A stretch of 64,000 nt of DNA from Loxodes magnus (lineage: Eukaryota > Ciliophora > Karyorelictea > Loxodida > Loxodidae): positions 186,001 to 250,000 of the forward strand of contig CAMPDV010000012.1 in the NCBI GenBank assembly GCA_946699065.1, in the 5' to 3' direction. Shown in pieces: positions 5,421 to 58,984 of this stretch; position 1 is the first letter of the stretch, and the number at the start of each line of letters is the position of its first letter. Both the position numbers and the translations under genes were made by a program. The notes beneath the pieces were generated by a model, which saw nothing but the letters and a program-made list of their open reading frames with translations, was not told the origin of the DNA and did no database searches.

Positions 5421-6363
5421 TCAACTCGAAACCTTCCACTTTCTAATCGTCTTGTCATCCGCTCCCGATACCAACCATCTATTGTCAACACTAAATTATA
5501 TAGAATTTATATATGAAGTATGCCCTTGCAAAGTCTATATACACTCACCCTTATCAAAGTTCCAGATCTTGATTAGATGGTCATCAGAACCAGAAAATAT
5601 AACACTTGAATCAACACTTAACTGAATACTTGATACATCACTATGACCTTTAAGAGTACGAATTCACCAACCAGAAGAGAAGTCCCATATCTTAATATTC
5701 TTGTCACCAGAACCCGATATTATATACCTATTATGCTTAGACACTATCACCGATGAAACATAATCTGAATGCCCAGTAAGAGTTCGCACAAGCTGACCAG
5801 TCTAGAAATCCCAGATCTTTATGGTTTTGTCATGAGATGCTGATACAATGTAGCTAGAGTCTAGAGAGATTACTACCGATCAAACTGAAGATGTATGTCC
5901 TGTTAAGGTTCTTTGGAGGACACCAGTCTATAAATTTCAGATCTTTATGGTTTTGTCATCAGATGCTGATACGATATAGTTAGAGTATGGGGAGATTACT
6001 ACCGATCTAACTCAATCAGTATGTTCAGTTAAAGTTCTTAAGAGAGCACCTGTCTGGAAATTCCAGATCTTTATCGAATATTCAGGCCATCCTGAACCTG
6101 ATACAATTCAATTCAGGTCACTTGATATGGATACTGAGCAAACAGGTGAAGTGTGACCAGTGATGATTTAGTCTAAAAAATATTAAAGAAATACCTTTAC
6201 TTTGGTCATAACTGATCTTGTTTATTAGCTTTTAGTAACATAAGTTAGGCAGAATTTCATACTTAAAATGAAGGAGAGATATTTTCCCTAAAATGTGGTT
6301 TCTCGCTCTTAAGAGTTTTCTTAAAAAAATACTTTTAGTAAATTGCTTTTCTTTTTTCTCCAT
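5421..6363 (-). CDS. WD40-repeat protein, copy 1 (six blades)
   Basis: This is a two-exon gene on the minus strand: exon 1 6195-6363, intron 6173-6194 (22 nt, GTATTT...TTTTAG), exon 2 5421-6172. The spliced length is 921 nt, an exact multiple of three, with no frame break. The start ATG opens [20 protein letters not shown]. Exon 1 (56 codons) is basic with no recognised domain. Exon 2 is a beta-propeller of WD repeats with GH dipeptides (TLTGHT, TLQGHT) and IKIW termini, ending KWKVSS. This copy has six blades where its relatives have seven. TGA must be read as Trp at DLN-W-IVSGS, TD-W-VRS and SSV-W-SV (5880-5882). WD40 propellers are protein-interaction scaffolds, and the specific partner is unknown. 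The gene lies inside the inverted arm and is transcribed outwards. Confidence 0.88.
6173..6194 (-). other. 22-nt spliceosomal intron in WD40 gene
   Basis: On the minus strand the segment runs GTATTTCTTT to TTTTTTAG between SYDQSK and DQIITGHT. Its removal joins exon 1 to the WD40 frame. Equivalent introns are 14060-14080 (21 nt), 26343-26364, 42494-42515 and 58794-58815 (22 nt each). The lengths of 21 and 22 shift a read-through frame differently while the spliced frame is kept in all five copies, which supports real splicing. Confidence 0.8.
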
Positions 6364-7715
6364 TTTAATTTTTATAACTTACTTTTATAATTTTTTAATT
6401 AAAATAGCTCAATAAATTTTACTTACTAAATTTCAATACAATTAAACAATCAAATTATTTATTAAGCATACTTATAAGTATCTTCTAAAACATTGATTTT
6501 TCTATTTTTTCTTAAAACAAGACAAGATATAAAACTATCTGTACAAGCTTTTACAATTTTAATTATTTTATATCTTTTTACTTTTAAATAAAAGGATAAA
6601 TTATTACATCAAAAGTTTATAACGAAGAATTATATCCTTATTATAATAACTTTAATATACATTTATTTAATTACTACTTATTTTTGTTTTAAATCAAAGA
6701 CTCTTAATAAGAAAATCTTATTTCGTTGTAAACTAATTTAAATGATAAATAAAATATTACTATTTTTTTAAATCTACTGTTATTAATTATTATTTTTCAC
6801 TTACATTTAATCAAAAAAATTATTTATTTAAGCTTTTTACTAATTAAAAAATGAAATAAAATAAGTTTCTTATTAATTAGTTTAAATAGATATTAAAAAA
6901 CATTAAATTATTTAAAACAAAGTATTTTTAGTATTTATAAGATAAAATTTTTTAATTGCCCACTTTCTTACTACTATTTCATTAAAATTTTTTATTTATA
7001 AAAGTCTCTCTTAAAATAATAAACTAATATAATTTATTTTAATGTTGATTCTAAGCAAAATATATAAATGTAATAAATATAAGTAGTAGAAAGTAAATAT
7101 TTAAATATTTAAACTATCTAGAAATGGTGTATTACTAATTTTATCTTACAATTATTAAATAGTAATATTTAATTTTATTATTAAAATAAGCTTTAATATG
7201 TTTAATTATGTCTATTAAATACTTAATATTTTATCCTTTTAGCTTTATTAGTTAATAATTTAAATTTTCTATTTAATTAATAAAGATACTAGATTAGTTA
7301 TAATTAATTTATTTAGATAACTTTCTCTTTTATAGCAAACTAATATTATATTAATTATTTATGTTATTTTTGTAATTATCATTTATAATTAATAATATTT
7401 TAACTATTTTACTTTATATTACACTTACTTCTTTTCTATTATACAAATCTATATTATATTGTTATCACTATTAATACTCTCTTTATTAAAATTAGTTGTT
7501 TGATATAAATAAAATTATAATCTTTTAAGAAAGAAAGTATATTTTAAATATATTATATTATTACTTTCTGAATTAATAGAAAGAGTAAACTTAACATAAC
7601 ATGTTTCTTTGTAGTATTAGATAATATAATTATTAGATTAGCTATTTAAAACTAATCTAATAGATTATTATTTACTCTTAATACATTTTATTAGTCTACT
7701 ATTATTCTATATTTT
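6364..7715. other. A+T-rich spacer upstream of WD40 gene
   Basis: I see no convincing gene. It is extremely A+T-rich and lies between the WD40 start and the cargo. It is present inverted at 12475-13890 and in the other units, with internal deletions in unit 2. It must hold the WD40 promoter, but no defined element is recognisable. Confidence 0.5.
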
Positions 7716-9854
7716 GTTCTTCCTAACAAACTATTCTTCATTATTTGCTTTATAGAACATCATCAATTTGCAAATTCTACAATACTAAAGTATAAGACGA
7801 AATTAATATCATAAGTAGATGCAAATAATATATGGAAGAAAGACAAAGATGTAAATCTTAATTGTATATCATTTACCTCAATAACAGGCAGAAACTAGTT
7901 GATCTATTAAACTTTGAACTAATACAAATAATACGAGGCAGTTACAAAATTTATAGTTAGCTATGTAATCAATAAGAAAAACTAAGTTAATAAATATACT
8001 TTATAGTAAAAGATTATATTAAAGAAATATTAGAAAAAAGGAAGAAAGGATACATTAAAAGAATTTTATCATATTAAAAAGTAATAGGCAACATTTTTTT
8101 GGGATCTAATGAACATACATGATCATATAATGAATTAACTAAAAAAAGGAAATAGAAAATAAGCAAGAGGAATTTAAGAGAAAAGTTGAATATAATCTAA
8201 AATAAGTGAAAAAAAGATTAATGGATAGTGAAAATGAATTAAGAACTAAAATTTAGCGTAAACAAATTATAAAATTAATGATTTATATATATTATGCTTA
8301 ATTAAAAGCCAAGCATAAGCTAAAATTATATCTTATTTTAAGCAATGATTTTATTTAAATTGTATTATATTGCATTATCTCATTTCAACTAATCAAATAC
8401 TCATATCAATTACCATTATAAAATAAATAATTTAAACTAAAATTAAGTTTCTAATTGTTTTAATCAATCTATTTCAAACTAAAATTAAGTCTCTAACTAC
8501 TAAAAACAGGCTACCTTATATAATAGCTATGAATAAATCTTTCAAAATTACTTATTTTTACTTATTTACTATCTCTCTTAATATTAAGCCTTTAGTTTTA
8601 ACTTATTTTACATCTCTTTAACTAAGACTAACAATTTATTCTATTTATAAGCTATTTTACTAAATCAAATTAAGGGTCACATTTTTAATCATGCTAGGTG
8701 TTGCTGTTAAACAATAAAATTGAAGCTAGTTAAGCATTAATCAAGATAAGGCTAACAAGACTAATATGATTAAAAGCTAAATGAAAATATAAAATCTATA
8801 ATCTAATAAAATAAGAACTTCATTAAATCAACCAAAATAAATTACTCCTAGAAAATTTATAACTAAGTAAAAATATTTAAGTTAAAGCTGAAATTTGAGA
8901 TTCCAATTCTTATGAAAATTACCTTCAAAAGCTTAAAAATTGTATGAAATAACTATTACATAATTATATTTTAGGAAAGATAAATAGTATAAAATTAAAA
9001 AATTACATGAGAGGAACAAAAGTAATGAAAAGAATAATTTAGAAAGAGATTAAGTTGCTATAAAATTAAAAGAAGGCATAAATCTATTGATAAAGTTATT
9101 TTGTGTATTTTTTCTGCTATATACAGCGCTAAAGAAAAATAAATATAATGCATGCTTAATATAATCATAATTATGAAAAGAAAACTGGAACAAATTTTTA
9201 ATAGCTATAAATTCAAGCAATACAAATTTAAAATTAGTAAAATTTACATTTTATTTTCACTGTAGAAATTCGCATAAGCATAAAAGAACAAGAATTAAGA
9301 TTCTAATTGTGATTTATAAAGAAGTTATGATAATTTTGAGTGCGTTTTTTAGCTTATTGAAGCCTTTAGAGTTTTTCAAACCTAAATTTTAATTTATTTT
9401 TTGCCTTTATTTATCCTAGCAAAATTAATTGCATTTTTTTTATCTCTTAAGTGTTTCTCAATTAAATTTGTACATTTTCATAGCTCTTCTATTTCTTAGT
9501 TTTAAATATTTTCAAATAACATTTATTTAACTAAGATTTTGGTCTAAAAATAAATTTGTAAAAAAAGATTTAATCTCGGAATATTTCCTGCCATATACAG
9601 TCATATTTAACTTCCTAAAAAGTAAAAAAGTTTAATATAGTTAAAAATAAGCTCATCTTTATGGCCCACTAGAAAAGAATAAGAATGAATATTTGGAGTA
9701 ATATTAACTATTAGAAACTGAAATGGCGAGCAACGGAATTCTTCCCATCGGAAATTGGGAAAATCTGGAAAAAAAGCAAATTCTTAACTCAGACTATTAA
9801 AAAGAGAGAAGTTCAGGAAAAAAAGCACAAGGAACGAACATGCAGGAAAGGTGA
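7716..9854 (+). CDS. Unidentified cargo coding region of unit 1
   Basis: Coding signal is judged from clusters of G-first codons. From 7716 one frame gives a coherent stretch (VDANNIWKKDKDVNLNC, QYKQYEAVTKFIVSYVINKK) up to an A7 run at 8141-8147. The strongest signal then moves to another frame, a Glu/Lys coiled-coil at 8137-8280 (KRLMDSENELRTKIQRKQ), and returns to the first frame by about 8980 (LHERNKSNEKNNLERDQVA). The first frame then persists through hydrophobic stretches to a G+C-richer end at 9640-9854 (MASNGILPIGNWENLEKK). In-frame TGA at 9852-9854 followed by TAA at 9861 is a candidate stop, like the WD40 genes. There is no in-frame ATG near the 5' end. Function is unknown, and frame changes suggest a damaged gene or undetected introns. 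Near-identical copies are at 27633-29421 and 60331-62469. Confidence 0.35.
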
Positions 9855-12474
9855 TTTTATTAATTTAAAACTTCCATTAAGCCAGAAGCCGAAAAGTTAT
9901 TTTAATGATTTAATTTAGATTAAAACTATTTTATAAATGAAAAAATATATTATCTTAATATATAATAAGAAATTTAAGAATTTTATAATATATGAAAAGA
10001 ATCTGATCATGATGTAAAATTGATTATTATTATTTTTATTTGCTTTATAATTTCTTTGTTTAAATTTATTATCTACAAATACATTTTTTATAATGTAAAG
10101 GCTTTAAAATTCTAGTCTTCAATTTTTTAATTTTTATATATATTTGAAAGTATGATAACCAATTGCTATAATATAATTAGAAAGAAATTCTCTTCATTCA
10201 AAGTATAAATATTACTTATCAACTTGATAGAGTTTTTAATTGATTGCAAAATAGATTTTTATAATAAGTTTTGTTGAAAATGTTTAAAAAATAAATTTTA
10301 ATAGAAAGGGATATTTTAAACTAAAAATAAGAAGGGATTTATACTCTATTGATATAATTTATTTTATAAATAAATAAATTTTCCTTATGTACCTATTTTA
10401 AGTAAAAAATAGCATTTTCCAGTCTGTTAAACCTAGAATTAGAAAACTTTGATTTTAATTATAATTAGTACAATTGCATTAGTTATTAAATACTAATTAT
10501 TACTAATTATTTTTCTATGAAATTTAATCTATAAAAATAATAAATATAAGATACGTAAATAAATTATAAATAGTATTATAATAATATTATTTTCACTAAT
10601 AATTAATAACTATAAATGAGTAAGTTTTTATAAAATTTAATAACCAGAAATATTTTAATTAAAATATTTAAATAATATTAAATTTTAAATAAGCAAGAAT
10701 AATATTCAAATTTACTTCATTTATATTTTATTAATAGACATTTATCAAAAAGTTTAATTTTATTTATTTATTGTTCTTAGACAATCTTTAACTCTCCTTT
10801 TAATAAAAAATGCTCCTAGTTTCATATTTTTTTATTTATAGGCATATTTGAATCAATAAAATTAAAAAATAAATATATTTTTAATTCAAAATTTTAATTA
10901 ATTTTGCTACTTTACTTAACATTTAAAGTTAGAATCTTAATATTGATATAAATTAAATTATTTTTAAAAACATTTAGTGGGATTTCATATTAAGTTTAGA
11001 AAAAGAATTAGAAAATAAAAAATTAAATTATTTTTACTTATTTATTCAAATATTTAATAGTTTCCATTAAGAAGAAGTTAAAATTTGAGATTATAAAATA
11101 ACTAGTACTTGTACCATATATATATCCATAATCGATGAAAAATAGTAAAAATAAACTATTTTCGAATAGGCTGATTATAAAAATCTGAGATTTAGAGAAT
11201 TTTTTAACATTTTTAACATTTTTAATTTTTTATATTTTGAAATTGAAAATTTCTAAGAATAATTATTTTTTTGTTGAATTTATTTATTTAAAAAGTCAAT
11301 CTATCTAGATTTGTAAGATTTTATATATTCTTTAATATTTATCTTTTTCTCAAATATTGTTAAATATAAAATTTTAAATTATAATTTTTTTAATTTTTAA
11401 ATTAATTAATTTATACTTTTTTTCTATTTTAGTAATTCTTTTAAATAATTTAATAAAACTGATAGTATCAATTAAATAATTAGTAAATTTTATATTCATT
11501 TTTTATAGAAAAATTTAATTTCTTAAGTTTTCCTTATAATTTTTAATTTAACTTTTAAAAATATTTAACTACATTTCTAAGGTTAAAATAGAGGTTACAT
11601 AATTGATTATATGTTTGATCTAAAGATTAATAAAATATTTTATTTATTTATAATATCATTTATAATTATAAATTTTCTTAATATTTTAATTATATTTAAT
11701 TAATGTTTTTATTTACTTTGGTTTTTTATAAAATATTAAGAGATTTTTATATAATAAATTGTTTTAAATTTTTATTAAACAAAAAGAAAAATATTAATTT
11801 TCCTTATTTTAATTTAAAATATTATTCTTAATTAATAAGAAATGTAATCACAGTTTTATTAAATATTTTATCTAGAGGATAAGAAAATTTCTTATTAGTC
11901 TCTAATTAAACCTTTCTTTAACTAGTTAAAGTACTTAGAATATTTCCAAGTACAGTTAAAGTAAAAAGGAATTTTCTTTTAAGTTTTTATGAATTAATAT
12001 TACTAAATGAGTTAGTGAAGGAGGCTATAATATATTAAACACTTGGTTTTAAGATAAATAGAGGATTTTAGATATATAAATAATTGACTCTATAGAAGAT
12101 TTAAGCTAGCTTTTCTTTATTTAATTATATAAAAGAATAATGTTTTCTTTTGACTATTTATTTTAGTACATATAATTACCTAAATGCTTTTTAGAACTAA
12201 TATCATTAATACTTTAAATATATTCTTATACTCACTAAAATAAACTTAGATAAATTAAGACTAAATATTTTACAAAATGTACCTTTTTATCAGTTTTCCA
12301 AACGAAAGTTAATTGCAAAAAGAAGATAATAAAAAGGAATATATAAATATAATTTAAATTTAGGAAAATTATAAATAATCTAAAATTCAAACTTATTTTA
12401 ATGCCTAAGTTTCAAATAATTCTATAACTATCTATATCATCTTTTTAGGTTTAAATCTATTGTAATAAGATTAA
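9855..12474. other. A+T-rich region between cargo gene and right arm
   Basis: The sequence is very A+T-rich with long A and T runs. I see no motif, no G-first codon clustering and no RNA gene. It is collinear with 62470-64000 as far as that copy is visible. Confidence 0.5.
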
Positions 12475-13890: not shown

Positions 13891-14955
13891 ATGGAGAAAA
13901 AAGAAACGCAATTTATTAAAATTATTTTTTTAAGAAAACTCTTAAGAGCGAGAAACAACATTTTAGGGAAAATATCTCTCCTTCATTTTAAGTATGAAAT
14001 TCTGCCTAACTTATGTTACTAAAAGTTAATAAATAAGATCAGTTATGACCAAAGTAAAGGTATTTCTTAATATTTTTTAGACTAAGTCATTACTCACACT
14101 TCACGTGTTTGCTCGGCATCTATATCAAGTGACCTGAATTGAATTGTATCAGGTTCGAACTATCCTGATAAAACCATAAAGATCTGGAATTTCCAGACAG
14201 GTGCTCTCCTAAGAACTATAACAGGGCATACTAAGACAGTTTTCTCGGTAGTAATTTCCTCGGACTCTAGCTATATTATATCAGGATCTTGTGACAAAAC
14301 CATAAAGATCTGAAACTTATAGACTGGTGCCCTCATAAGAACCATAACGGGACTTACTTCTACAGTTAGATCAGTAGTAATCTCCCCTGACTCTAAATAT
14401 ATTATATCGGCATCTAGAGATAAAACCATAAAGATCTGAAATTTCCTCAATGGTGATCTCCGAAGAACTTTAATGGGTCATACTGATATAGTTAGATCGG
14501 TATTAATCTCCTATGACTCTAAATATATTATATCGGGATCTGAAGATACAACTATAAAGATCTGGGATTTCTAGACAGGTCAGCTTGTGCGAACTCTTAC
14601 TGGGCATTCAGACTTAGTTTTATCGGTGATAGTGTCTAAGGATAATAGATACATAATATCAGGTTCTCGGGACAAGACAATTAAGATATGGGACTTCTCT
14701 TCTGGTTAGTGTATTCGTACTCTTTAAGGTCATAGTGGTGTATCAAGTATTCAGTTAAGTGTTGATTCAAGTGTTATCTTTTCTGGTTCTTATGAAGGAA
14801 CAATCAAGATATGAAATTTCGATAAGGGCGAGTGTATATAGACTTTGTAAGGCCATACATCGTATATAAATTCTATATCATTGAGTGTTGACAATAGATG
14901 GTTGGTATCGGGAGCTTGTGACAAGACGATTAGAAAGTGGAGAATTTCGAGTTGA
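13891..14955 (+). CDS. WD40-repeat protein, copy 2 (seven blades)
   Basis: Exon 1 is 13891-14059, the intron 14060-14080 (21 nt) and exon 2 14081-14955. The spliced length is 1044 nt (348 codons), uninterrupted when TGA is Trp. The protein starts [20 protein letters not shown] and runs through seven blades to KWRISS. Trp at the blade ends (IKIW) is TGA in blades 2, 3 and 6 (the last at 12-14 of 14812-14814) and TGG in the others, while copy 4 has TGG at the blade-6 position (43250-43252). The Gln of LQGHTSY is TAA (14848-14850) here and CAA in copy 1 (5526-5528). The final TGA (14953-14955) is followed in frame by TAA 24 bases later. It faces outwards from the unit. Confidence 0.88.
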
Positions 14956-16061
14956 GTAACTTGCTATTTGACTTAATTTAAGTTTACGATTAAAGATATA
15001 AGATATTGGTAATGCATTTAAATGAATGCTGAATGGTAATAATGTTTTTTGTTATATGAAATGTTTGTTTTATATATTTATTAAAAATTTGTATATTCTT
15101 AAATATTCTTGGTTTAAAAAAAAGGTTGAGTAATATAGGTTATTGAAATTAGTGAGGTATGTTGATTTAAAGTGGGTAATGTTTAAAAATATTAAAAATA
15201 TAATTTTGGTAAATGAAGACGTATAATAAATTTAAGTTTAATTTTATTCTTTCGAATTTTATTGATTTATTTTTAGATTTTTTTTAAATTTCAAGTTAAG
15301 TAAAAATTTTTTTTGTGAAGTAGTTAAAATATTATTTATAAGGTTAAAGTTAGTTTATGATTTTTATTATTAATTAAAAAATTTTAATATTTAAGTTTAA
15401 TGTTTTTCGTTTCCGATTGGAAAATTAATTTTTCTGATGGTAAGTTTTTATTTTTCAATTTTAGAGCTTAAATTTTATGAAAATGAAAAAACATTTTTTT
15501 TGCTCAGCGCTTTACCCTACCAAAGATTTTTGGAACGGAATAAATTTGATTATTTCGGGATAAAAAATTCTAAATAGGAATAAAATTAAAAATAAAATTC
15601 TAAATATAAAAAGATTTTTGAGAAAAAATAGGAATTAAAAAAAATTTTATATTAAAGTAGAATTTGGAAATCTTTTTTGTTGAAATGGTATTTTGTAAAA
15701 TTAAAAAAAATTTTTTTATTTGAAAATTTAAAAAAAAATTGTTTTGTTTTTGATTCAAAAATATATTTTTGATAAGATAAATTATTTTTGAAATGATAAA
15801 AAAATTATTGTTTATGCTTTTGAAAAAATACTATTTTTAATTTTGAACTTCTTTTCGAGTAAATGATAAAATTCGCTTTAAAAATTTTTAATGTTATAAA
15901 ATATTTCTTAAATGAAAAGGATTTCAAGAAAAAAGGAGATATAATAAAATAAACCATGAAATCGTGAAAAATTATCCTTTTTTCGCTCTGAGTTATTCGC
16001 TACAAAAGATTTTCGGGTGGATAAATCCTTTTCTTAAAGGGATAGAATTTTAAAAAATTTG
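14956..16061. other. A+T-rich outer part of right arm
   Basis: This is the inverted counterpart of 3280-3954 plus 4936-5420, without the inserted repeat and module. Nothing coding is recognised. Confidence 0.5.
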
Positions 16062-16261
16062 AAAAGTTTTTTAAATGAATTTTAAGAAGTAAATATAAAA
16101 GAATAAATGACAATTTTAGGAAGAAACTAAATCAGTAAAAATTTTTTCTATAAGAGGGCTTAAAACTACCTTTTTAATAAATATTGCGAATTTTTTAAAA
16201 TAACTAATTTAAAAAGAGCTAAAAATCTCTTTATAAAAATATAATCAATCAAATAGAAAAA

Positions 16262-17050: not shown

Positions 17051-17689
17051 AAAAAATAGGAAATATTTCGTACAATATAAAAAGAAACATATATAGCATA
17101 ATAAAAAGCAAAGTTTCTACTAAGCCGATAATGTTAATAGTACACAATTTCCCAAATGATCTTAATAATGAGCTATTTTTGTTTTATTCTAAATTATTAG
17201 ACAACTAAATCATAATTTTTAATTTAAGCGTTCCATTAATAAATATTTGCTTTAATATACAATATAGTATTTTTTAATTTAAGATACTAAATATTCATAA
17301 GCATAAAAACATTTAAAGTGGTTTAATAATATGATTTTTAAAAGATTAAGCACTTATTTAAATTTAAAATATCTTATCAAGAAATTAAATTAAAATGTTT
17401 TAATATTCATTTTCTAATTAAATGATCATTGTTTATTGTTCATTTATCTATTTGATTGATATTTAAAGATTGTAATTATATTTATTAATAAAGTATGATA
17501 TTAACTGAAAATTGCTAAATATTTAAAGATAAAAACTTAATTATTAAAACAATTCTTATCTAAGATAAACAGTGATAAGATGATATTATAGCTTAAAAAG
17601 AAAAATTTTTTCTTGCAAATTGATTTATAAAAAAAAAACTTAATTTCATATGAGATTAATTGAAGATGTGCAAGAATTTGAGGAAATAT

Positions 17690-21542: not shown

Positions 21543-22348
21543 TCAGACATAATTGTATAATTATTGGCATTTAACCAGGCAAATTACGCTAAATTTAAAA
21601 GTTTATATATTTCATTCATGGTTCTCTTTCACTCTCATTTTGAAAACAATTTTTCAGCTCATTAAATCTGTTTATGGGTTTTTAATATAATTTATTTTCT
21701 CTTCACTCTAGTTCTTAAAAATCTTAAATAGTTTTCTAAATATTATTGATGAAATATTTTTTTGTACTTATCTAATTTAATTATCTTATCTTTTGTAAAC
21801 TATTTATTAATATAGTTTTGGTCTTATAAAGCAAGTCTTTTACACTATTTAAATTAATTATTTTAAGTTTATTAAATTTTTTAAAATATATGTAAAAAGA
21901 TTACATTTGAAAGTGTGCTAAAATGTATTAAATTCCTATCTAATTAAGCAAAGTTTATTGAATTGAGTTTTGATATATAGATGATTCAGTTCATATTAAA
22001 AATTATAAGTATAAGTAAATAATTTTTAGATTGAAATAGTTTTTTAAATTAGATGTCTATTGTATTTAGCGCATATCATTAAAGAGAAAACGTTTTATAT
22101 ATTTCTTATTAAATCAGCAAATCATTTTACTGTTGAAATAACTGCAAATCTTTAAAGGGATTCTTAGAATAAATATTTTTTTATTTAAATATTGTTATGC
22201 TTATTAAACTCTTTGAAATCATCAATTATAATATCTATTTGCAAATATTTAATTAAGCAAGGCTTTGATTATCTTGGCAACCCTTTATTTAAAAAAAATA
22301 TTTATCTTACTTCAGATTTATTTCTTTGCTATGATTTTGAGATTAAAG
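21543..22348 (-). CDS. Unidentified ORF, 5' end lost at a junction
   Basis: One minus-strand frame stays intact for about 265 codons from the junction at 22349 to an in-frame TGA at 21543-21545. I checked that 22265, 21992 and 21704 are in the same frame. G-first codons are enriched (IDIIIDDFKEFNKHN, SEEKINYIKNPQTDLM). TGA as Trp appears as VK-W-FADL, MS-W-KIVF and HE-W-NIQ. No family is recognised. The 5' end is cut where the LINE ORF1 fragment begins, so this is a truncated gene at a rearrangement boundary. Confidence 0.42.
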
Positions 22349-23375: not shown

Positions 23376-23384
23376 TTTTTTAAT

Positions 23385-46289: not shown

Positions 46290-49045
46290 ATATAAAATAA
46301 ATAAGTTATAAGATGCAATATATCGTCAAAAATATTTATAATCTTTCCTGCAAACTTATCTAGAATTCTTTTAGATAGTTTAAGATAATCTTGAAGTTTA
46401 ATATGAATTTATCAAAAATAACATCTAATACAATGCTGATTAAACATTAGGATCCTTTATTCCAGACAAGTTATAACAAATTTCCTCGAGATTTTATTAA
46501 GAAATATGTAGGCCTAAAAGGGCTAACTCAATATATAAGAAGCATACATTACATATGGAAGAATAAACTAATAAGTAACTAATATTCATGAAAAAGTGAA
46601 ACGATATTCTGAATGACTTCTAGTCTAATTTGTGAAAGTTTGAAAAAATAAAGTAAAAAAGAAACTTTTACTTCTAAATGGAGATGCTAAAGAATTATTT
46701 TAATATACTAAGAAAATTAAAAACCCTAAAAAAAATAAATTAAATGAACTTTAATTAAGAAATCAAAAATGAATCCATTGATTCATGGAAGAATTGTATT
46801 TTTAACAAACATTCTAATCTAACTAAATAATAAATAAATCTTAGTAATTAAATAATAGATAAAATATAAGATAGTATTTAAGAAATTAATGATTATCAAC
46901 TCTCATATTTATAAGGATTTTATCTTTTTACCATACAAGAAATACAAAAAATTATAAAAGAAATTACGAATGGAAAAGCAGCTGGTCCAGACAGAATAAA
47001 AAGTGAACTTCTGAAATATGGTGGATAATATTTGTTAATAATTCTTCACTCTTTTCTGAATAATATGTTAAGATTTGGAAAAATCCCTTAGGAATTAAAT
47101 GCATTGTCGGTAATTCCAATATTTAAAAAAGGAAATAAAGATGATTGGAAAAACTGACTACCTGTCTCTCTTATTAATATTATTATAAAACTATATGATA
47201 AAGCTTTAACAAAAAGACTATACAATCTGATTTATTAGAGTAATTTGATTCACCCTTCATAAATGGGATTTATACAAATTAGATAAACAACTTAATAAAT
47301 TTGAATAATATGACAAATAATTGATAACTATCGGAAAAGTACTAAAAGTAAGACTAAATTGATAGCAACACTGATAGATTTGAAAAAATGTTTGACTCAA
47401 TAGAAAGAAGACTCTTGTTTGATTAACTTAAGAGAGTTAAACTACCACTTGGAATAATAATAGCTTTAAAATCTTTTTACAAAAACCTAAATTCTTCATT
47501 TAAAATAGAGGAAAGAACGCCAGAACATTATAATGTCAACAATGGAGTTATGTAAGGAAGTTCTCATGGACTAGTTTTAGCATTGATTTATTATGACATA
47601 GTAATTAGATATCTGGAAAGTAAAAGTACTTAATTGGAATTCAAATGCTAGGATTCAAGTATTAGCTTCGCATGCAGATGATGAGCAGATGATCTGATTC
47701 TTCTTTCCAGAACTTCAAAGTAAATGCAGGAGTTAATAAATGAAACAAGTAAGCATTTTTACATAAACTCACTTAAAGATCAATGTTATCAAATCTGAAT
47801 GCATCTAAATTTTAAATAAACATTATAAATAATAAAATTTAAATTTATGATTAGATAATTAACCAATTATTTAAAAGGAACTAGTTACATATTTAGATGT
47901 AATGCTACATTAGAAGAAGAGTTTTAATCCTTATTGTAGAGAAGTCGTGATCAAGTATTTAGTCGCAACGAAAATAGCTGTTTTTTAGCTTAATAAGATA
48001 TTAGAATGTGACTTCTTGACATTTTAAAACTTTATGCAGATTTTTTACACTACCTAAAGTAGAATATGGAAGAGAGCTAGCACCATGGTGTATTCAAAAA
48101 GGAATAACTGGAGTTTTGAATAGAATTGAATCACGTATGAGAATGATTTAAAGAAAAGCATTTGAAGCAGCAACTTCATCATTAATAAGTTATGTTTCAT
48201 AGATTTAATCTGGTTATCTTTCAAACACATTATGGCAATAAAGTTTTTTAAATTCTATTATAAAATGAAATAAGAATGTATTGATTTTCCAACATCGACA
48301 ATAGACTCTCTTTTCATTACCAACTGAAAAAAAGGATTTCAATACTATGATCAAGTTTAGCAATTATCAGACCTCCATAGTATCGACCTGTAGAATTCCA
48401 AGATTAGTGCAAATTAAAAAATTTATTCTAAATATATAAGAGAACAAAATACAATAATATTTCTATAATACAGCTACTCAAAAGTTTAAGAGAATGAAAA
48501 TAGCTAAAATATATACTGAACAGTTCAGTAATCTTAACCGATTTCCAGTAATTATTAGCACTAAGTTGAACATATAGTTTAGACAAGAAATTATCAGTAT
48601 ATATAAACTAGAATCCAATCTTATAATTTTAGAAAAAAAGATCTTCATTATCCTATTGATAATCCCTACTGTATGTGTGGAGAATATGATAAAATTGAGC
48701 ACATTTTTAAATTTATATACTATTCTAATACAAGAGATTGACTATCGTAAAAGATGATTAAGGACTTATAAACTCTCTTCCGAATATTTATTTGGGATAT
48801 TTAGATTTATAAATAAAAATATTTCACAAGAAACTTATATCAAGAAGATTAGATTATTAGAAATGGAAAAAGTAAAAAAGGAAGAAATAAATGAGAGACT
48901 ATAACAAGAGTAATTAAAAATTGATGAGATCGAGATTATAATTAAAAAATATTAAAAACATTTACTAATGTCTATAATTAAAGGAAGCAATTCATGCAGT
49001 TATAGATGTCAAAAACTCTTTTAATTTAAATTTAAATAAACAGTT
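46290..49045 (+). mobile_element. LINE-like retrotransposon copy, 5'-truncated (second plus-strand copy)
   Basis: It is near-identical to 17690-20390 and in the same position relative to the right arm, so it was duplicated together with it. It retains the sequence after GKAAGPDRIKSELLKYGG (near 46976) that unit 1 lost. The motif-B-like NNGVMQGSSHGLVLALIYYD is readable near 47537-47597, followed by the ADD region with the same 11-base duplication, and CMCGEYDKIEHIF near 48672. The motif A frameshift is shared. It is non-functional. Confidence 0.8.
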
Positions 49046-49807
49046 TCATACAATAACTCTTTTATTAAATTGAAATATTATTACTAAATAGCTAAATATA
49101 TACCATTTATTTTTATAAATAAATATTAAAATTTAGGTTCTAAAAACTAATTAAATTGCTAATGAAGCCATTTAAAGAAATCTTTATTTAACTATAATTA
49201 ATAAAAGATAGAGAATATAAAGGAAGAAGTATCTAAAAGGAATTTAAGTTTTAAGTAAACCAAAGGAAACTTTAACTTTATTACTTTACTAGATAAAATT
49301 CTAAATAATAGCAAAATATAGTTAAAATAATCCTTTATAATAATAAGATATTAATATTAAAAATACTATCTAAAATCTAAAATAATTAAATAATTATATG
49401 TTTAGCTAAAATTAATTATCTTTGTATCAATTTAAAACTAATAAAGAGGATGCTTTTCATAATTTTGATAAGAGTTTTAAATAATTGGTTAACAATAAGC
49501 ATTTGATTACTATATTATAAAAATATAAAGATTCACATTTGATAATTAATGTCTACAATAATTAAAACAATAATTTAGTTAATTAAAAAGTAAATATAGT
49601 TAAACATATCTTTAGAGATAACTGTATAAAATAAAATTAATAAAGAATTATAAATAATTATAAATTTATTGAATATATAATTTTTAGTTCTAAATAATAT
49701 AAGTAATTATAATAATAATCTTAACTAACTTTTATTATATTTTAAAGTTAAGTATAAATTATTAATTTATATATCAAAATTTAATTAAACTTATTATTAA
49801 ATTAAAT
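49046..49807. other. A+T-rich gap between tail-to-tail LINEs
   Basis: It matches 20391-21137 and then meets the 3' end of the minus-strand LINE. No gene is seen. Confidence 0.5.
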
Positions 49808-50189
49808 TTAAACTAAAAGAGTTTTTTGACGTCTTTAATTGCAAGAATTCCTTCTTTCAATTATAGACGTTAGTAAATGTTTTTAAATTGTTTTTTAATC
49901 TTATTTACATCTCATCATTTTTCTTTAATTGATTCTTCTTTCTATTCATCTTTAGCTTCTTCCTTTTTTGCTTTCTCCATTCCTAGAATCTCAAGTCTCC
50001 TTGTCATTAGCTTCTTATGAAATATTTTGATCTATAAGTCTAAATACTCCAATTTAGATCTTGAAAATGAGTTTAGATATTCTTGATCGTATAGTATAAG
50101 GCGCCTTAAGTCATAATTTCCGATCTTTTCCGATAATCAATTCATTATATTAGAATAGTACACACATTTAAAGATATGCTCAAAAGTTT

Positions 50190-52140
50190 CATACTCTCCA
50201 CACATACAAAAGGGATTATCAATGGGGTAATGACGATCTTAAAGATCCTTACGGAAATTATAAGTTTAGGTTCTAAGTTTATATATACTGATAATTTCTC
50301 GTCTAAACTATTTGTTTAATTTAGTATAAGAAATTTGTGGAAATTTTTAAAGATTACCAAATTATTCAGTATATACTTTAGCTGTTTTCATTCTCATAAA
50401 TTTTTTAGTAGCTACTTTGTAGAAATATTGTTGTATTTTTTCTCTTACATGTTTAGTAAAAGTTTTAAGATTGGTATTATTCTATTAATTCTGCAGGTCG
50501 ATATTATAAAGGTCTGATAATTGCTACACTTAATCGTAGTATTGAAATCCTTTTTTCCATATATTAATGAAAAGAGAGCCTATTGTTGATCTTGGAAAAT
50601 CAGTACTTTCTTATTTAATTTTATGGTAAAATCTGAAGAATTTTATACCCATAATGTGCTTAAAGGGTAATCAATTCAGGTCTATATAACATGATTCATT
50701 AACTGTTGAAGTTGCTACTTAAAAAGCTTTGCTTGAAATCATTCTCATACGTGATTCAATTCTATTCAAAACTCCAGTTATTCCCTTTTGAATACTTCAT
50801 GGTACTAAGCCTCCTCCATATTCTGCTTTAGGTAATGTAAAAAGTCTACATAAAGTTTTAAAATGTCAAGGAGTTACATTCTTATATCTTATCAGTTAAA
50901 AAACAGCTTTCTTCATTGCAGCTATATATTTGAATGCAACTTCTTTGCAATGGGGATTTAAGTTCTTCTTCTAATGTAGCATTACATCTAAATATGTAAC
51001 TAGTTCCTTTTTAAATAATTGGTTAATTATCTAATCATAAATTTAAGATTTATTATTTACAATGTTTATTTAAAATTTAGATGCATTCAGATTTGATAAC
51101 ATTGATCTTTAAGTGAGTTTATGTAAAAATGCTTACTTGTTTCATTTATTAACTCCTGCATTTACTTTGAAGTTCTGGAAAGAAGAATCAGATCATCTGC
51201 TCATCATCTGCATGCGAAGCTAATACTCCAACCCTAGCATTTGAATTCCAATTAAGTACTTTTACTTTCCAAATATCTAATTACTATGTCATAATACAAC
51301 AATGCTAAAACTAGTAAATGCGAACTTCCTTACATAACTCCATTGTTACATTATAATGTTCTGGCGTTCTTTCCATCTATTTTAAATGAAGAATTTAGGT
51401 TTTTGTAAAAAGATTTTAAAGCTATTATTATTCCAAGTGGTAGTTTAACTCTCTTAAGTTAATCAAACAAGAGTCTTCTTTCTATTGAGTCAAACATTTT
51501 TTCAAATCTATCAGTGTTGCTATCAATTTAGTCTTACTTTTAGTACTTTTCCGATAGTTATCAATTATTTGTTATATTATTCAAATTTATTAAGTTGTTT
51601 ATCTAATTTGTATAAATCCCATTTATGTAGGGTGAATCAAATTACTCTAATAAATCAGATTGTATAGTCTTTTTGTTAAAGCTTTATCATATAGTTTTAT
51701 AATAATATTAATAAGAGAGACAGGTAGTCAGTTTTTCCAGTCATCTTTATTTCCTTTTTTAAATATTGGAATTACCGACAATGCATTTAATTCCTAAGGG
51801 ATTTTTCCAAATCTTAACATATTATTCAGAAAAGAGTGAAGAATTATTAACAAATATTATCCACCATATTTCAGAAGTTCACTTTTTATTCTGTCTGGAC
51901 CAGCTGCTTTTCCATTCGTAATTTCTTTTATAATTTTTTGTATTTCTTGTATGGTAAAAAGATAAAATCCTTATAAATATGAGAGTTGATAATCATTAAT
52001 TTCTTAAATACTATCTTATATTTTATCTGTTTTTTAATTACTAAGATTTATCTATTCTTGAGTTAGATTAGAATGCTTGTTAAAAATACAATTTTCCCAT
52101 GAATCAATGGATTTGTTTTTGATTTCTTAATTAAAGTTCA
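50190..52140 (-). pseudogene. Reverse transcriptase and C-terminal zinc-finger domain of the LINE
   Basis: From the N-terminal side it reads EIKNKSIDSWENCIFNKHSN and EITNGKAAGPDRIKSELL (near 51914). DDWKN-W-LPVSLIN follows, where TGA stands for the Trp seen in related transcriptases (NWRPISL). Next come QMGFIQIRQTTQQI and TLIDLKKC, where motif A is split by a frameshift near 51505. The GS-rich motif B and the ADD catalytic pair near 51200 follow. The C-terminal motif CMCGEYETFEHIFKC has all Cys/His positions, whereas the plus-strand copies have lost the last Cys. The frameshift and the 11-base duplication at the catalytic ADD make an active enzyme unlikely. Confidence 0.8.
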
Positions 52141-52577
52141 TTTAATTTATTATTTTAGGATTTAGAATTTTCTTAGCTATGTGAAAAAATTTCTTTAGCA
52201 TCTCCATTTAGAAGTAAAAGTTTTTTTTTACTTTTTTTTTTTAAACTTTCATAAATTATACTAAAGTCATTCAGAATGTCGTTTTGCTGCCTCATGAATA
52301 TTAGTTACTTATTAGTTTATTCTTCCAGATATAATGTATGCTTCTTATATACTGAGTTAGCCCTTTTAGACCTACATATTTTTTAATAAAATCTCGAGGA
52401 AATTAGTTATAACTTGTCTGAAATAAAGGATCCTAATGTTTAATCAGCATTGTATTAGATGTTTTTTTGATAAATTAATATGAATCTTCAAGATTATCTT
52501 AATTTATTTAAAAGAATTTTAGATAAGTTTGCAGGAAAGATTATAAATATTTTTGACGATATATTGCATCTTATAAC

Positions 52578-53302
52578 TTATTTATTTTATATTTTTTCTG
52601 AGTTATTTTTTCCCAATATACTATAGAATTATTGATAAAGTCGACAGTGATTGGAATATGATCAGAAAATAAACTATTATTATGAGCAGTGAAATTAGCA
52701 AACTAATTAATGTTTAAATGGTTGTTTATAATGATATAATCATTACAATACGTTTTTCCTGTTCCTTTGTGAATACATGTATTAATGTTGCTATCATTCA
52801 CTATCTCAAGATCGTTTTATAGTAAGAATTCTTATAGTCTAATGCTATTATCATAAGCATTTTCAGGATTATCACCGAAACCATATAAAAGAGCATTTAA
52901 ATCTCCCATTAGTATATGTGGATTATCATTATATAAATTCAGCAATGTATTTAGTTGCTCATAAGCTAAATCTTTAACATCTTAACTTTTTCCACTATCA
53001 GGCATGTAACAAGACGTGATTAAAATATTATCCAGTTTAATTGTTATGATTCTATTTATTTCTTTTTCAACTTATATATGTATTTCTGTACTATTAAATT
53101 CTTTTCCTACAATTAAGCATACACCTCCTCCTTTTCCTGAGTTCTTAAAATATGTTTTAAATCCATTTATCAATATTGGAGGAAAGTTATCTTTTTATCA
53201 GGTTTCGTTTATTGATAAAATATCTATACTGTTATCTCTGATAAGTTCTTCGATATTCAAGCACTTGCTCGCTATTCCATTAATATTTATATGTCCCATC
53301 TT
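52578..53302 (-). CDS. APE-type endonuclease domain of the LINE (complete)
   Basis: This complete domain is in one frame, about 242 residues. It starts KMGHININGIAS, then SINET-W(TGA), GKGGGVCLIVG, TSCYMPDSGKS, HILMGDLNALLYGFG, DLEIVNDSNINTCIHKGTG and SLFSDHIPITVDF. These correspond to the N, E, Y, D-x-N and SDH landmarks of exonuclease III-like endonucleases of LINEs. It continues without a stop into the linker before the reverse transcriptase. It is the best-preserved enzymatic domain in the window. Confidence 0.85.
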
Positions 53303-54668
53303 TATTTTTTAAATCTATTAGTCCTTTCTAATTTTTTCCGATCCTGCAGATAGACCACTTTCGTAAATGCAAATGCTTTTCTATCCTTATTGGTTAATCT
53401 AAATATGTACTAATCTTTTTCCATACTCAGGATGTTAATGAAAATATTGTATCAAAATATATATTACTTACGTCGTATATTTTTTAAGTAGCTTTCTATC
53501 TATATCAATTTTACTTTTCACACTATCACATGTACCTTTTCTAAATCTTAAGTAACTGTGACATATCTACCTTATATATTGTACATTTCGTACTATGAAC
53601 GTCTTCAAGTTTCGGATTTAATAAACTTTTAAAGTTATAGACTAGTCAGATTGAAATAACATATTATTTAATCGCACTCTTTTTTATTATTATGTTTACT
53701 CATACGTTTTGCTGGCGGAATTGTTTTATCTTCTTCTTCATGTTTCCTTTTAAGAATATTAAGATTAATATTGGAAGATAAGGTTTAATTCTGATAAATA
53801 GCATCGATCGAATCTGTTTAGTTTTATTAATCTTTTTTTCATCTTTTAATAGAATAATTAAATATATCTGTTTTCAAATTTTAATTAAGTTTTTAAAACT
53901 CTTATATTTTTATCTCAAGTGTCTACATATTTTGGGTACTTTAAATGAATTTTAAGTTGAGTTAGTGATATTAATGCTATAGTAAAACAAAATCTTCATC
54001 TGGCAATTTTATTTGACAGTATTAGTTATTATGTAATGTTATAATAGTATTAGTTGATGCTTCCTATTAATTATTTTAAGTTTACATTAGCTTGTCTTGC
54101 TTGATTATATTTGTTTGAGTAAATTTTTGACACAAAAAAGCTGTTTATTATTTATTTATATTATCTGTTTAGATAATACTATCCTTTGTTTAAATATTTC
54201 CATATAATGTCTAAGTTTATGCCTCTACAAATTACTTCTTCTAAAATTACTATTAATTACTAAATTCTTTTGTATGTTAGATTTAGTTCTAAAATAATTC
54301 TTTATACATTTGAATTTCCTTATTTTTTAATAGAATTTAATTTTGAAAAGCTATATTTATTTCATAGTTTTATTATCTTTACTTATCTAATTAGATTTTA
54401 AAAGTTAAAATTTCCATTTAAGCTTTCTATTCTTAATCTATAAATTACTTATTTTAGTTTTATAATTTTTAATATTAAGAATATAACTCTTGGAGTTAAA
54501 TTTCGGTTATTATTTTTTATTAGGTAATTTGTTGAAGTAAATATTAGTTCTATTCTAATATAGTCTATTGATATCCTTGCTAAGTTTTATTTAGAAAGTT
54601 ATCTATTTCAATTTAAGTAAAATTTATAATTTTATTAAAGTTTTGGCATACTGAATTATTTGCTCCTA

Positions 54669-55821
54669 TCATTTAAGCTAAGTAAAGCTTTAATTAGCAT
54701 TGGCTTCAATTTGAATCTTTTAATTAGATTATATTTCATCTATTGAATTGACTTAATTCTCATAGTTTTTCTATTATATCTAAATTTCTTGAACTATACT
54801 AATTATTTCATCTGTTTAAACTATTTAGTTACTGTAATAAGTGGAGAAGTTTGTTTAAGTAATTTTATGAATTAGTTATTTTGATAGCATTTTTTTGTGA
54901 TATTGCTATACATCAGATTTGATTGACTAAAAATTGTTCTATAATAGTTTATATTTCTAATAAATTTTATTTATATAATGTTTATAATATATTTTGGATA
55001 TTTCTTAGTTACTTATCAATGTTTCAATATCTCGTTCATATTTTGCTTTTATATTAATTAGCATTTCATTTAATTATTGGTTCTTATCTATAAGTCTTTA
55101 TATATTATGTTTAAGTTCTTTTATTTCTAAGGTAAATAAATTCTCATTAGACTAATTAATTATTTGATTTTATATTACATTTCTTAAATCAGCAGTTTAA
55201 TTTTAAGCTTGTTTGCTCTGAAGATCAGGTAAATAATGATTATTTGAATTATCAGGATTAGTAGTATTATTTTATTTCTGACTAATTTAGTTATTTGAAA
55301 TTTAATAGAATTGTTAATTAGTATTATTCAAAAATTAATCTTAAGTTTATGTTATTTTTGACTACCATAAAAGGATATCTTTATTTGAATTTTAATTAGG
55401 ATTTGAAGGTATATCTTTTGAATTCTAACTATCTAAGATAATATCTTATTTTTGGAAAGATTTCTTAGGTAATCGTTTCGTATCTTCGCGGTATTATTTT
55501 AGGCGGTTAATTTGTTCATCTATTTATAGGTTGCTTTCACTTTCATAATACGCTACAATTAATATCCACGTTGAAGAGAGTTCCTGAGTAGTTTTAATGG
55601 GACGCGTATGAATTTGTTTTCTAGTTTTTGACTACAGATATTTAGTAATTTTCTAAATAGATCCATTATTATGTTTACTTATTTGATTTGTATCAACTCC
55701 TTTTCTTTTATTTGGATGTTTTTATGCACCTGTCTTGCTTGATCTATTAGTTTGCAGATTCTTTATAATCAATTAAAGAAGAGTCGCTAGTTAAAACTGT
55801 TGAATTTTAAGTATTTTCCAT
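54669..55821 (-). CDS. Retrotransposon ORF1, copy in 55 kb element
   Basis: The ATG at 55821 opens MENTQNSTVLTSDSSL. After a frame change near 55750 the body runs QIDEQINRLKQYREDTKRLP and the Asn-rich tract into the coiled coil, with TGA at 54669-54671 as a candidate end. Unlike the window-start copy, the body is continuous through 55530. It is ORF1 by position and composition only. Confidence 0.5.
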
Positions 55822-55831
55822 TTTTTTAATT

Positions 55832-56105
55832 TAACCTAGTGCTTATAATGAATAATCATTAAACCACAATTATACAGTTTCTTTTGTATACATGTATTAG
55901 CGTTACTATCATTCATAATTTCAAGGACATTTAGCAGGAGAAATTCTTATAATCTATATGTATTATCAAATTATTTTCAGAATTGTCTACAAAACCTTAT
56001 AAAAGGGTGTTGAAATCTCCCGTCAGTATATGTGGATTCTCATCAAATTTATTTAGCAATGTGTTAAGAAGTTCATAAGCTTAATCGTTGATATCTTAAT
56101 TTAAA
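55832..56105 (-). pseudogene. Endonuclease remnant, unit 3 copy
   Basis: This is the third copy of the relic seen at 2985-3260, again wedged between LINE ORF1 and the left arm. Confidence 0.6.
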
Positions 56106-56929
56106 AGCCATTGTTAGAAATTTTTATATCTTTCAAAACTCTAACCCTTTTTTTAATTTATCCATCCCGAAAATCTTCTGTAGTGTAAGACTCGTAGCTA
56201 AAATAAAGAATAATTTTTCATAATTTCATTATTTACTTTCTTTTCTCTCCTTTTTTATTATGATCTTTTTCAATTAAGTAAATTCTTATAAAATTTAAAA
56301 TTTTAATTCCAAGTCAAAAAAAATGAATTTTTATCAAAAACATAAACAATAACTTTTTTTTTATCATTTCAAAAAAAATTAAACTTATAAAATCTTTTTT
56401 CTTGAGTCAAAGGCAACCAAAAATTTGTTCAAATTTTTTCCTTAAAACAAAAATAAGTTTTTTCATTTTTACAAAATACCATTTTAACAAAAAAGATTTA
56501 AAAATTCTAATTTTGCTGTAAAATTTTTTAAATTCCTATTTTTTTCAAAAATCTTATATATTTTGAATTTTTTTGAAATTTTATTCCCTTTTTACTTTTT
56601 TTCATTCTGAATTAAAAAATCTTATTCCGATCCAGATATTTCCTCTAGTGCTAAACTATGAACAAAAAAAACGAATTTTTATTTTTCATGAAATTCATAC
56701 TCTTAAATTGAAAAGATTATGATAACTAAAAAAAAACTTACTATCAGAAAAAAATATTGCCAATCGGAAACATAACATATTAAACATAAAAATAAAAATT
56801 TTATAATTATAATTAATAATTAATAATAATTAATAATAATAAATAAAGAATAAATAAATATTAAATAATTAATAATTAATTAATAAATAATAATTAATAA
56901 TTAATAATTAATAAATAAATTTTATTATA

Positions 56930-57425
56930 GAGCGCGTAGCACTCTCGTTGGTGCGCAGCTCTTTAAAAAAAATGTTTCATACTGGCAAGAATGTTTGTTA
57001 CTGATAAAATTATCAGATACTGATAAACCTTGTTCAATAAAGGTATAATTATTCAGTACTGATAAAAATGTTCAATACTGATATAATTTTAGAATACTCG
57101 TAATCTTTAATACTTGCTGGAGATCCAAGGACATGGTAGGATTGTGTCTCATTGCATCACCAAAGCAGAGGACGACATGTGTCAATTATGGGTACTTAAA
57201 TTCCCCACCTCTGATGAAGCTCGCAATATTATTTCTTTTTTGTTCCAGAATTAAAAATAAACGAAGCCAAGCCAGTGTCGAAGGTCTAAGAATCTTATGT
57301 CTTGAGGCCAAACCAAAGCAGAGGAAGACATAAAGTCGATTATGTGTACTTAACTTCCCCAACCTCTGATGAAGATGGCCTTGTTGTTAACCTTCGAACA
57401 ACTATGGCGGTTTTAAAGAAATATA
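56930..57425. mobile_element. SINE-like module, unit 3 left arm
   Basis: It has the same head, TACTGATA words, paired direct repeats and ACTATGGCGG end as at 4432-4935. The stretch from 57426 to 57912 is the A+T-rich WD40 3' flank without features. Confidence 0.55.
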
Positions 57426-57912
57426 TATCAATAATAAATTAATAATAAACAAAGTAAAATAAATACTTCATAAAATTTTTAAAATAATAATCAAGATTAT
57501 AAACTAACTTTGCCATTATAAATAAATTTTAACTACTTCGCAAACAAAAATTTAAATTTTTACTTAACTTGAAATTTTTACGAAACCATAATTAAATAAA
57601 TAAATAAAAAATTTTATGAAATAAAAGCAACTTAAGTTTATTATTTATCTTCATTCAACAAAAAATATATTTAATATTTTTAGACATAATCACTTTTAAA
57701 TCAACATACCTCACTAATTTCAATAACTTATATTATCTACTTTACCTTTTTTTTAAGCCAAGAATATTTAAGAGTCTACAACTTTTTAATAAATAAAAAA
57801 GTAAACACTTCATAAAATAATAAACATAATTACCATTCAACATTCATTTAAATTAACTTGTCTAATTAATATCTTTAATCGTAAAATTTAATTAAGTCAA
57901 ATCATAAGTTAC

Positions 57913-58984
57913 TCAACTCGAAACCTTCCACTTTCTAATCGTCTTGTCATCCGCTCCCGATACCAACCATCTATTGTCAACACTCAATGATATAGAATTT
58001 ATATATGAAGTATGCCCTTGCAAAGTCTATATACACTCACCCTTATCAAAGTTCCAGATCTTGATTGTTCCTTCATAAGAACCAGAAAAGATAACACTTG
58101 AATCAACACTTAACTGAATACTTGATACAGCACCTGTATGACCTTAAAGAGTACGAATACACTAACCAGAAGAGAAGTCCCATATCTTAATATTCTTGTC
58201 ACCAGAACCCGATATTATATACCTATTATCCTTAGACACTATCACCGATAAAACTAAGTCTGAATGCCCAGTAAGAGTTCGCACAAGCTAACCAGTCTAG
58301 AAATTCCAAATCTTTATAGTTTTGTCATTAGATGCCGATATAATATATCTAGAGTCATATGAGAGTACTACCGAGTTAACATATGAAGTATGTCCCGTTA
58401 TAGTTCTTTGGAGAGCACCATTGTGGAAATTTCAGATCTTTATGGTTTTGTCATGAGATGCTGATACAATGTAGATAGAGTCTAGAGAGATTACTACTGA
58501 CCAAACTGAAGATGTATGTCCTGTTAAAGTTCTTTGAAGGACACCAGTCTATAAATTTCAGATCTTTATGGAGTAGTCATGAGATCCTGATACGATATAG
58601 TTAGAGTCTGGGGAGATTACTACCGATAAAACATCTCAAGTATGTCCTGTTATAGTTCTTTGAAGAGTACCTGTCAATAAGTTTCAGATCTTTATCGATT
58701 TTTCAGGATATCCTGAACCTGATACAATTCAATTCAGGTCACTTGATATGGCTACCGATAACATAGCTGAAAAGTGACCAGTAAGGATTTAGTCTATAAA
58801 ATATTAAAGAAATACCTTTACTTTGGTCATAATTGATCTTGTTTATTAGCTTTTAGTAGCATAAGTTAGGCAGAATTTCATACTTAAAATGAAGGAGAGA
58901 TATTTTCCCTAGAATGTGGTTTCTCGCTCTTAAGAGTTTTCTTAAAAAAATACTTTTAGTAAATTGTTTTTCTTTTTTCTCCAT
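57913..58984 (-). CDS. WD40-repeat protein, copy 5 (seven blades)
   Basis: Exon 1 is 58816-58984, the intron 58794-58815 (22 nt) and exon 2 57913-58793. The spliced length is 1050 nt (350 codons), uninterrupted under TGA=Trp. The blades include HT-W(TGA)-DVLSVVIS and SSVWSVVIS, where the Trp is TGG (58501-58503) at the exact site that is TGA in copies 1 and 3. The sixth blade begins GHTGAVSSIQLS, one codon longer than in copy 1. The end is KWKVSS with TGA at 57913-57915. As in the other left arms it is transcribed away from the unit. Confidence 0.88.

Follow-up and report, generated by a model that had tools for sequence, protein, structure and literature searches.

Stop-type codons predicted to be read as sense in a diversifying WD40 gene family, in DNA attributed to a karyorelict ciliate

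How can five related WD40 genes keep intact frames in DNA in which all three standard stop codons occur within those frames? This question is raised by a 64-kb stretch of contig CAMPDV010000012.1 (called the window here: the whole 64,000 nt analyzed, with an A+T content of ~78% by base counts), in which no stop-to-stop frame of ≥150 codons was found in any of the frames under the standard code. The five genes together contain 60 in-frame TAA, TAG, or TGA codons among 1,698 codons, and the frames of all five copies are intact. Our answer is that the window is very probably nuclear DNA from a karyorelict, with Loxodes or a near relative the most likely source, and is read with NCBI table 27, where Gln is encoded by TAA and TAG, Trp is encoded by TGA within genes, and a TGA close to the end of the transcript is the stop. 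A first-pass annotation made from the raw letters had arrived at the same sense meanings, which stand; it had missed the use of TGA as a stop, the intron, and the mixture of purifying and diversifying selection described below. The code itself, a rare one known from few lineages, has been described before (NCBI table 27; PMC11441545); here it was recovered from raw DNA alone. What is new is the diversification at four repeat positions amid a conserved N-terminus and propeller core.

The architecture is the same in all five copies: a 169-nt exon 1, a short intron (GTATTTC...TAG; 21 nt in copy 2 and 22 nt in the others), and then the WD40 exon. Copy 1 (5421–6363, minus strand) starts with the ATG at 6363 and consists of exon 1 (6363–6195), an intron of 22 nt (6173–6194, GTATTT...TTTTAG), and exon 2 (6172–5421), which ends in a stop TGA at 5421–5423 assigned by homology with copy 5; the first bases of its in-frame codons are 6110, 6014, 5939, 5882, and 5666 for TGA, 6234, 6170, and 5498 for TAA, and 5930, 5804, and 5537 for TAG. 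Copy 2 (13891–14955, plus strand) has its intron at 14060–14080, with one T fewer than the other copies, in-frame TGA at 14140, 14311, 14437, and 14812, and its stop TGA at 14953–14955. Copy 3 (25465–26533, minus strand; intron of 22 nt at 26343–26364) contains in-frame TGA at 26280, 26184, 26109, 26052, 25983, and 25710 and ends in TGA at 25465–25467. For copy 4 (42325–43393, plus strand), the corresponding positions are 42494–42515 (intron, 22 nt), 42575 and 42746 (in-frame TGA), and 43391–43393 (stop TGA), and for copy 5 (57913–58984, minus strand), they are 58794–58815 (intron, 22 nt), 58731, 58686, 58638, 58560, and 58434 (in-frame TGA), and 57913–57915 (stop TGA). Copies 3 and 4 each have an alternative in-frame ATG 15 nt upstream, which would extend the N-terminus to MEKKQMEKK, with TAA as the Gln codon in copy 3 and CAA in copy 4.

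The 21–22-nt segment is predicted to be an intron from the reading frame, the consensus at its ends, and its length. If it were left in, the MEKK exon and the WD40 exon would be out of frame with each other in four of the five copies, and the one-base difference in copy 2 would shift the frame, so that this difference is harmless only if the segment is spliced. The predicted splicing yields proteins of 306, 347, 348, 348, and 349 residues for copies 1 to 5, with a coding sequence (CDS) length that is a multiple of three and no frame break in any copy. We chose CDS length and frame as the evidence of intactness and dropped pairwise indel counts (gaps not divisible by three, 24 in coding vs 59 in flanking pairs), because the coding gaps cancel one another inside hypervariable stretches and resemble alignment artifacts. 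Copy 1 lacks exactly one 126-nt WD unit (codon alignment columns 171–212), and its product would have six blades rather than seven.

Codon usage and exchanges between the copies bear directly on what the stop-type codons mean. The five genes contain 34 TGG and 22 TGA codons (a TGA share of 22/56 among Trp codons, with two to six TGA per gene), as well as 19 CAA, 12 CAG, 18 TAA, and 20 TAG. All nine triplets cited in the first-pass annotation were exact, those on the minus strand as reverse complements. At the Trp of SSV-W-SV, TGG at 58501–58503 faces TGA at 5880–5882 and 26050–26052 (column 154, TGA/AGA/TGA/TTA/TGG in copies 1–5); at a second Trp site, TGG at 43250–43252 corresponds to TGA at 14812–14814 (column 303, TGG/TGA/TGG/TGG/TGG); at a Gln site, TAA at 14848–14850 alternates with CAA at 5526–5528 (column 315, CAA/TAA/CAA/TAA/CAA); and the Gln of MEKKQMEKK is TAA at 26534–26536 or CAA at 42322–42324. 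In the codon alignment as a whole, TGG and TGA are exchanged at columns 93, 154, 177, and 303, CAA and TAA at column 315, and CAG and TAG at column 225. The same annotation had argued for synonymous use from the absence of TAG at the IKIW positions. The count holds, in that the 34 codons in those seven columns comprise 23 TGG, 10 TGA, one TGT, and no TAG or TAA, but the argument is weaker than it looks because the TGA codons there need only ~4 mutations and because column 267 pairs TGG with TAG; with so few mutational events, we no longer use it as a main argument.

To obtain the meanings from outside the family, a protein search was made with copy 5 after its TAA, TAG, and TGA codons had been masked, which gave 346 matches, and the 120 of these that were listed were used as outside WD40 proteins. 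For each codon type, masked in all five genes, the residues shown by these proteins were scored as log-odds; the five copies do not supply independent sites. For TGA (21 sites), Trp came first (25.6), followed by Tyr (12.3), and for TAG (20 sites), Gln came first (20.1), followed by Glu (11.3) and Lys (10.4), an order that disfavors, for TAG, the assignment of TAR to Glu of the Blastocrithidia type. Masked copy 5 also still matches solved WD40 structures. In the alignment with 2ymu, Trp faces the TGAs of residues 79 and 121, and Gln faces the TAGs of residues 169 and 211; in that with Tako8, Gln faces residues 169 and 211 and also the TAA of residue 217. The proposals that TGA is Trp and TAG is Gln are thus supported by proteins outside the window. 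This comparison replaced a codon test based on the internal repeats, which was set aside because the first repeat was two residues out of register (scores with that misregistration: TGA, Trp 5.4 and Cys 3.9; TAG, Gln 2.1; TAA, Thr 2.3 and Gln 0.0).

The window also contains long interspersed nuclear elements (LINEs). The longest copy, with frame breaks, occupies 49700–53330 on the minus strand and encodes an endonuclease (PF14529, PF03372) followed by a reverse transcriptase; two plus-strand copies at 46288–49035 and 17684–20382 are 88% and 87% identical to it, respectively, and the 5′ piece of a fourth lies at 1–484. Among four LINE stretches scanned with Pfam, three had matches only below the curated cut-offs, including a weak RVT_1 match (4.3e−05), and the fourth had none, and the C-terminal part gave 418 candidates in a protein collection, none of them significant. 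As had been suggested for the Trp of N-W-LPVSL in the reverse transcriptase, the TGA at 51730 faces the Trp of the N-W-R-P motif in all three R2 sequences among the matches listed, and a TAA faces the Gln of QRGF in the two of these that extend that far. In the compared in-frame stretches of three LINE copies, TGA and TGG are exchanged at 50799, 50673, and 50559 in the C-terminal part, and there are one TAA/TGA, one AAA/TGA, and one TCA/TGG pair but no TGG/TAG pair; these exchanges weigh less because the LINE copies are decayed.

Several observations weigh against these assignments. At columns 109, 110, 154, 172, 267, 268, 273, and 325 of the WD40 codon alignment, a stop-type codon in some copies faces a codon for a different residue in others. 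In the outside test, the eight TAA sites favored Ala (4.8), Thr (4.5), and Glu (3.4), and Gln was not recovered; furthermore, when sense codons were used as a control, the method was right for 39 of the 58 with usable sites and wrong for 19, with both CAA and CAG among the failures. In 2ymu, the TGA at 53 is matched by Ser, the TAA at 217 by Thr, and the TAG at 166 by Arg; in Tako8, the TAGs at 166 and 256 are matched by Lys and Arg, respectively. In the R2 alignment, the other four of the five TAAs face Glu, Gly, Glu, and Asn, and one TAG faces Asp. The TGA that had been read as the Trp of an endonuclease ETW motif did not hold up, since the two solved nucleases that cover the site, among the matches listed, have Lys there. 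Taken over whole genes, the ratio of nonsynonymous to synonymous substitution rates (dN/dS) between WD40 copies was only moderately below 1 (0.29–0.80 over ten pairs). Because the outside test was undecided for TAA, its reading as Gln depends on the CAA/TAA exchanges between copies and the one conserved Gln of the R2 reverse transcriptase; these sequence comparisons support it, and it is the weakest of the three sense assignments.

The ends of the genes show a second role for TGA. In all five, a common terminal TGA follows IRKW(K/R)(V/I)SS (IRKC in copy 4), and the first alignment gap whose length is not a multiple of three lies ~50 nt beyond it. An AlphaFold2 model of the WD40 exon of copy 5, built with 31 other sequences, had a predicted local distance difference test score (pLDDT) of 97.8, a predicted template modeling score (pTM) of 0.93, and 28 strands, which is the number for seven four-stranded blades, and its last strand ends three residues before the terminal TGA. 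Pfam likewise recognized seven WD40 repeats in this exon, with the best at residues 252–289 of 293. The nearest solved structure is the seven-bladed propeller 7big (the designed v13WRAP-T; template modeling [TM] score, 0.95 by query length; 45% identity), and several WDR5 chains also reached a TM score of 0.95, with 33–34% identity for the chains listed; the shared fold implies no functional link. Because the shared TGA stands where the predicted seven-bladed propeller closes, TGA in this family is predicted to be both a sense codon and the stop. Before that stop, the nearest in-frame TGA is 47 codons away and the nearest TAA 25 codons away, and every copy has a TAG at a distance of 38 codons. 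On the mechanism drawn from the literature, Gln tRNAs would read UAA and UAG, a Trp tRNA would read UGA inside genes, and nearness to the poly(A) tail or mRNA end would make the last UGA a stop. This family, which uses TGA heavily at structural Trp residues, is useful for peptide or ribosome-profiling tests.

Which organism and which code does this pattern fit? The first-pass annotation had named karyorelicts or Condylostoma, which was right in kind. Condylostoma and the karyorelict Parduczia share the same sense meanings, and in those Parduczia transcripts that were inspected, UGA occupies the expected stop position (PMC4967479). The alternative that survives best, although improbable, is the Condylostoma magnum code (table 28), or another that also terminates genes with TAA and TAG: its sense meanings are identical, and the gene ends inspected here belong to only one family. 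However, all three codons also end genes in Condylostoma, whereas TGA ends all five copies here and TAA and TAG end none of them, and the introns of 21–22 nt differ from those of 15–16 nt in heterotrichs, the group of Condylostoma (PMC11441545). Both points favor the karyorelict code of Loxodes. In Loxodes, introns have a mean length of 19.3 nt and a mode of 17 nt, with 93% at ≤25 nt; the guanine-plus-cytosine (GC) content is 33.5% in CDSs vs 18.6% in 3′ untranslated regions, compared here with 27.6 and 36.4% in the exons and 19.5% in the downstream DNA; UGA and UAA are depleted over ~20 codons before the stop; and the genome of Loxodes magnus has LINEs and plentiful repeats (PMC11441545). The window thus resembles Loxodes in its tiny introns, the depletion of TGA before the stop, the low GC content of the 3′ DNA, and an abundance of repeats and LINEs, with LINEs carrying Exo_endo_phos_2 and the weak RVT_1 match, and it shares with both Loxodes magnus and Parduczia sp. 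(table 27) TAA and TAG as Gln and TGA as Trp and stop (PMC11441545, PMC4967479). In Parduczia, TGA makes up 0.120% of codons (PMC4967479), vs 22 of 1,698 here, a figure that reflects a Trp-rich WD40 family and not a genome-wide rate. A nonciliate in which every standard stop codon has a sense meaning, for instance Amoebophrya sp. ex Karlodinium veneficum, shares the same inferred meanings (PMC12005148), but we regard such an origin as very improbable since the small size of the introns (compared with those of Loxodes and heterotrichs), the LINEs, and the base composition all agree closely with Loxodes.

Selection between the WD40 copies bears on whether they are decayed. The ratio of nonsynonymous to synonymous differences (pN/pS) was calculated pairwise by position set among copies 1, 2, 4, and 5, with bootstrap ranges. 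It was 0.16 in the N-terminus (58 columns, 0.05–0.44), 0.36 in the WD repeats with four positions set apart (262 columns, 0.27–0.49), and 2.74 at these four positions (28 columns, 95% range 1.81–5.25); the last value became 2.75 when copy 3 replaced copy 1 and 2.80 with all five copies. The four positions, −25, −23, −7, and −5 relative to the repeat Trp (position 0), had the highest pN of 22 sets with identical spacing. They were taken from the literature on the Podospora receptors HET-D and HET-E, in which unit codons 7, 9, 25, and 27 are positively selected and flank consensus residues 8 and 26 (PMC1805685), but the pN peaks had already been seen beforehand, without a hypothesis, at −25, −7, −23, −26, and −5; position −26 varies as well, with a pN of 0.37 but a pS of 0.44. 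The correspondence between the two numberings is by text description and spacing; here, the four positions lie on either side of a conserved Val/Ile and of a conserved Asp/Glu. In the copy 5 model, the residues at −25, −7, and −5 lie in loops and those at −23 near a strand start in all seven repeats.

This mixture of constraint and excess change, which is not expected of decayed genes, argues strongly, as a pattern in the sequences, against the WD40 copies being pseudogenes, and the stop-type codons in them are most likely truly read as sense. Decay under the standard or an ordinary ciliate code, with the stops arising by C-to-T and G-to-A mutation, would suit an AT-rich window with near-identical duplicated blocks and decayed, frame-broken LINE copies, would require only single transitions (TGG to TGA and CAA to TAA), and would agree with whole-gene dN/dS values of up to 0.69 (copies 1 and 5) and 0.80 (copies 3 and 5). 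It is nevertheless extremely unlikely, because no copy has a frame break and the one-base difference in intron length is harmless, because selection acts on residues downstream of the first stop, because Trp and Gln were recovered blindly with the codons masked, and because the WD40 and LINE comparisons yielded seven TGG/TGA columns vs one TGG/TAG column (~0.035 by hand if the two were equally likely). Equally remote is ciliate code 6, with reassignment limited to TAA and TAG and with TGA either read through or a sign of damage, since, although the genes do end at a TGA, five genes under selection carry 22 in-frame TGAs, two to six in each, with TGA in 10 of 34 codons at structural WD-repeat Trp positions, and Trp was recovered blindly for TGA.

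The variable positions suggest what the family may do. Judging from the alignment and the model, binding is the most likely role of these WD40 proteins, with pressure for change acting on their exposed face. In Podospora anserina, the HNWD genes (HET-D/HET-E) have mutually similar WD units within one gene, vary in unit number by exact unit loss (as in copy 1 here), and concentrate changes at two pairs of residues on the propeller face (7, 9 and 25, 27) (PMC1805685, PMC2873952); the same excess of amino acid change at these unit codons was found here (pN/pS 2.74, pairwise). They differ in belonging to a fungus, whereas the window is from a ciliate-like genome, and in their NACHT and HET domains: no Pfam match to either was found in three masked frames over the 3 kb upstream of copy 5 or in its predicted protein, although domains split by introns could escape such a scan, and the genes here carry a 56-residue N-terminal exon for which no relatives were found. 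This exon (6363–6195 and its equivalents) is the most conserved part of the gene, with the pN/pS of 0.16 given above; it had no Pfam match above the cut-off, and residues 1–62 gave 11 candidates in a protein collection, none of them significant. Nonself recognition is one possibility for the variable face, by analogy, and duplicate genes shifting their partners is another. We tentatively suggest, as a possible rather than a favored scenario, that a karyorelict may hold a clustered WD40 recognition repertoire that diversifies like HET-D/HET-E, at the same four positions and by unit loss, apparently without NACHT, in which one-base changes to TGA, TAA, or TAG would add Trp and Gln to the repertoire instead of killing the gene. 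No account of WD40 diversification in ciliates was found by title among the matches listed in the open-licence literature, which does not establish its absence in print. The selection pattern is less expected than the code, in that diversification at positions worked out in fungal nonself recognition is seen in a ciliate-like genome, and recognition systems in ciliates would become a testable question.

Elsewhere in the window, neither tRNA genes nor Rfam matches at gathering thresholds were found. When a gene finder based on codon usage was trained on the WD40 copies, it returned three related ~100-codon stretches in addition to the copies themselves and their shadow frames. A scan for stop-poor regions had, among the matches listed, many weak segments in AT-rich DNA; we claim no further gene from either. 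The WD40 genes, whose orientation alternates along the window (−, +, −, +, −), lie inside large duplicated blocks, of which 1–4063 and 52847–56920 are 98.7% identical, 5643–11386 and 58264–64000 are 96.2% identical, and 22343–27326 and 54789–59742 are 95.2% identical. An AT-rich segment of ~0.8 kb lies 3′ of each of the five genes (3235–4127, 15237–16106, 23635–24480, 43808–44694, and 56081–56926) and shows about 71–73% identity between the plus- and minus-strand groups. A GC-richer repeated element (~34–39% GC per 300 nt), in whose frames no domain was recognized on inspection by eye, occurs four times (4319–5062, 24642–25106, 30020–30751, and 57089–57553), and three of the four copies sit between a short tandem array and a WD40 gene. 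This array, of the ATAATTA type, lies in each of three related blocks (at 3956–4424, 24357–24475, and 56803–56921), and in the first it can also be read as ~6 copies of a 72-nt unit.

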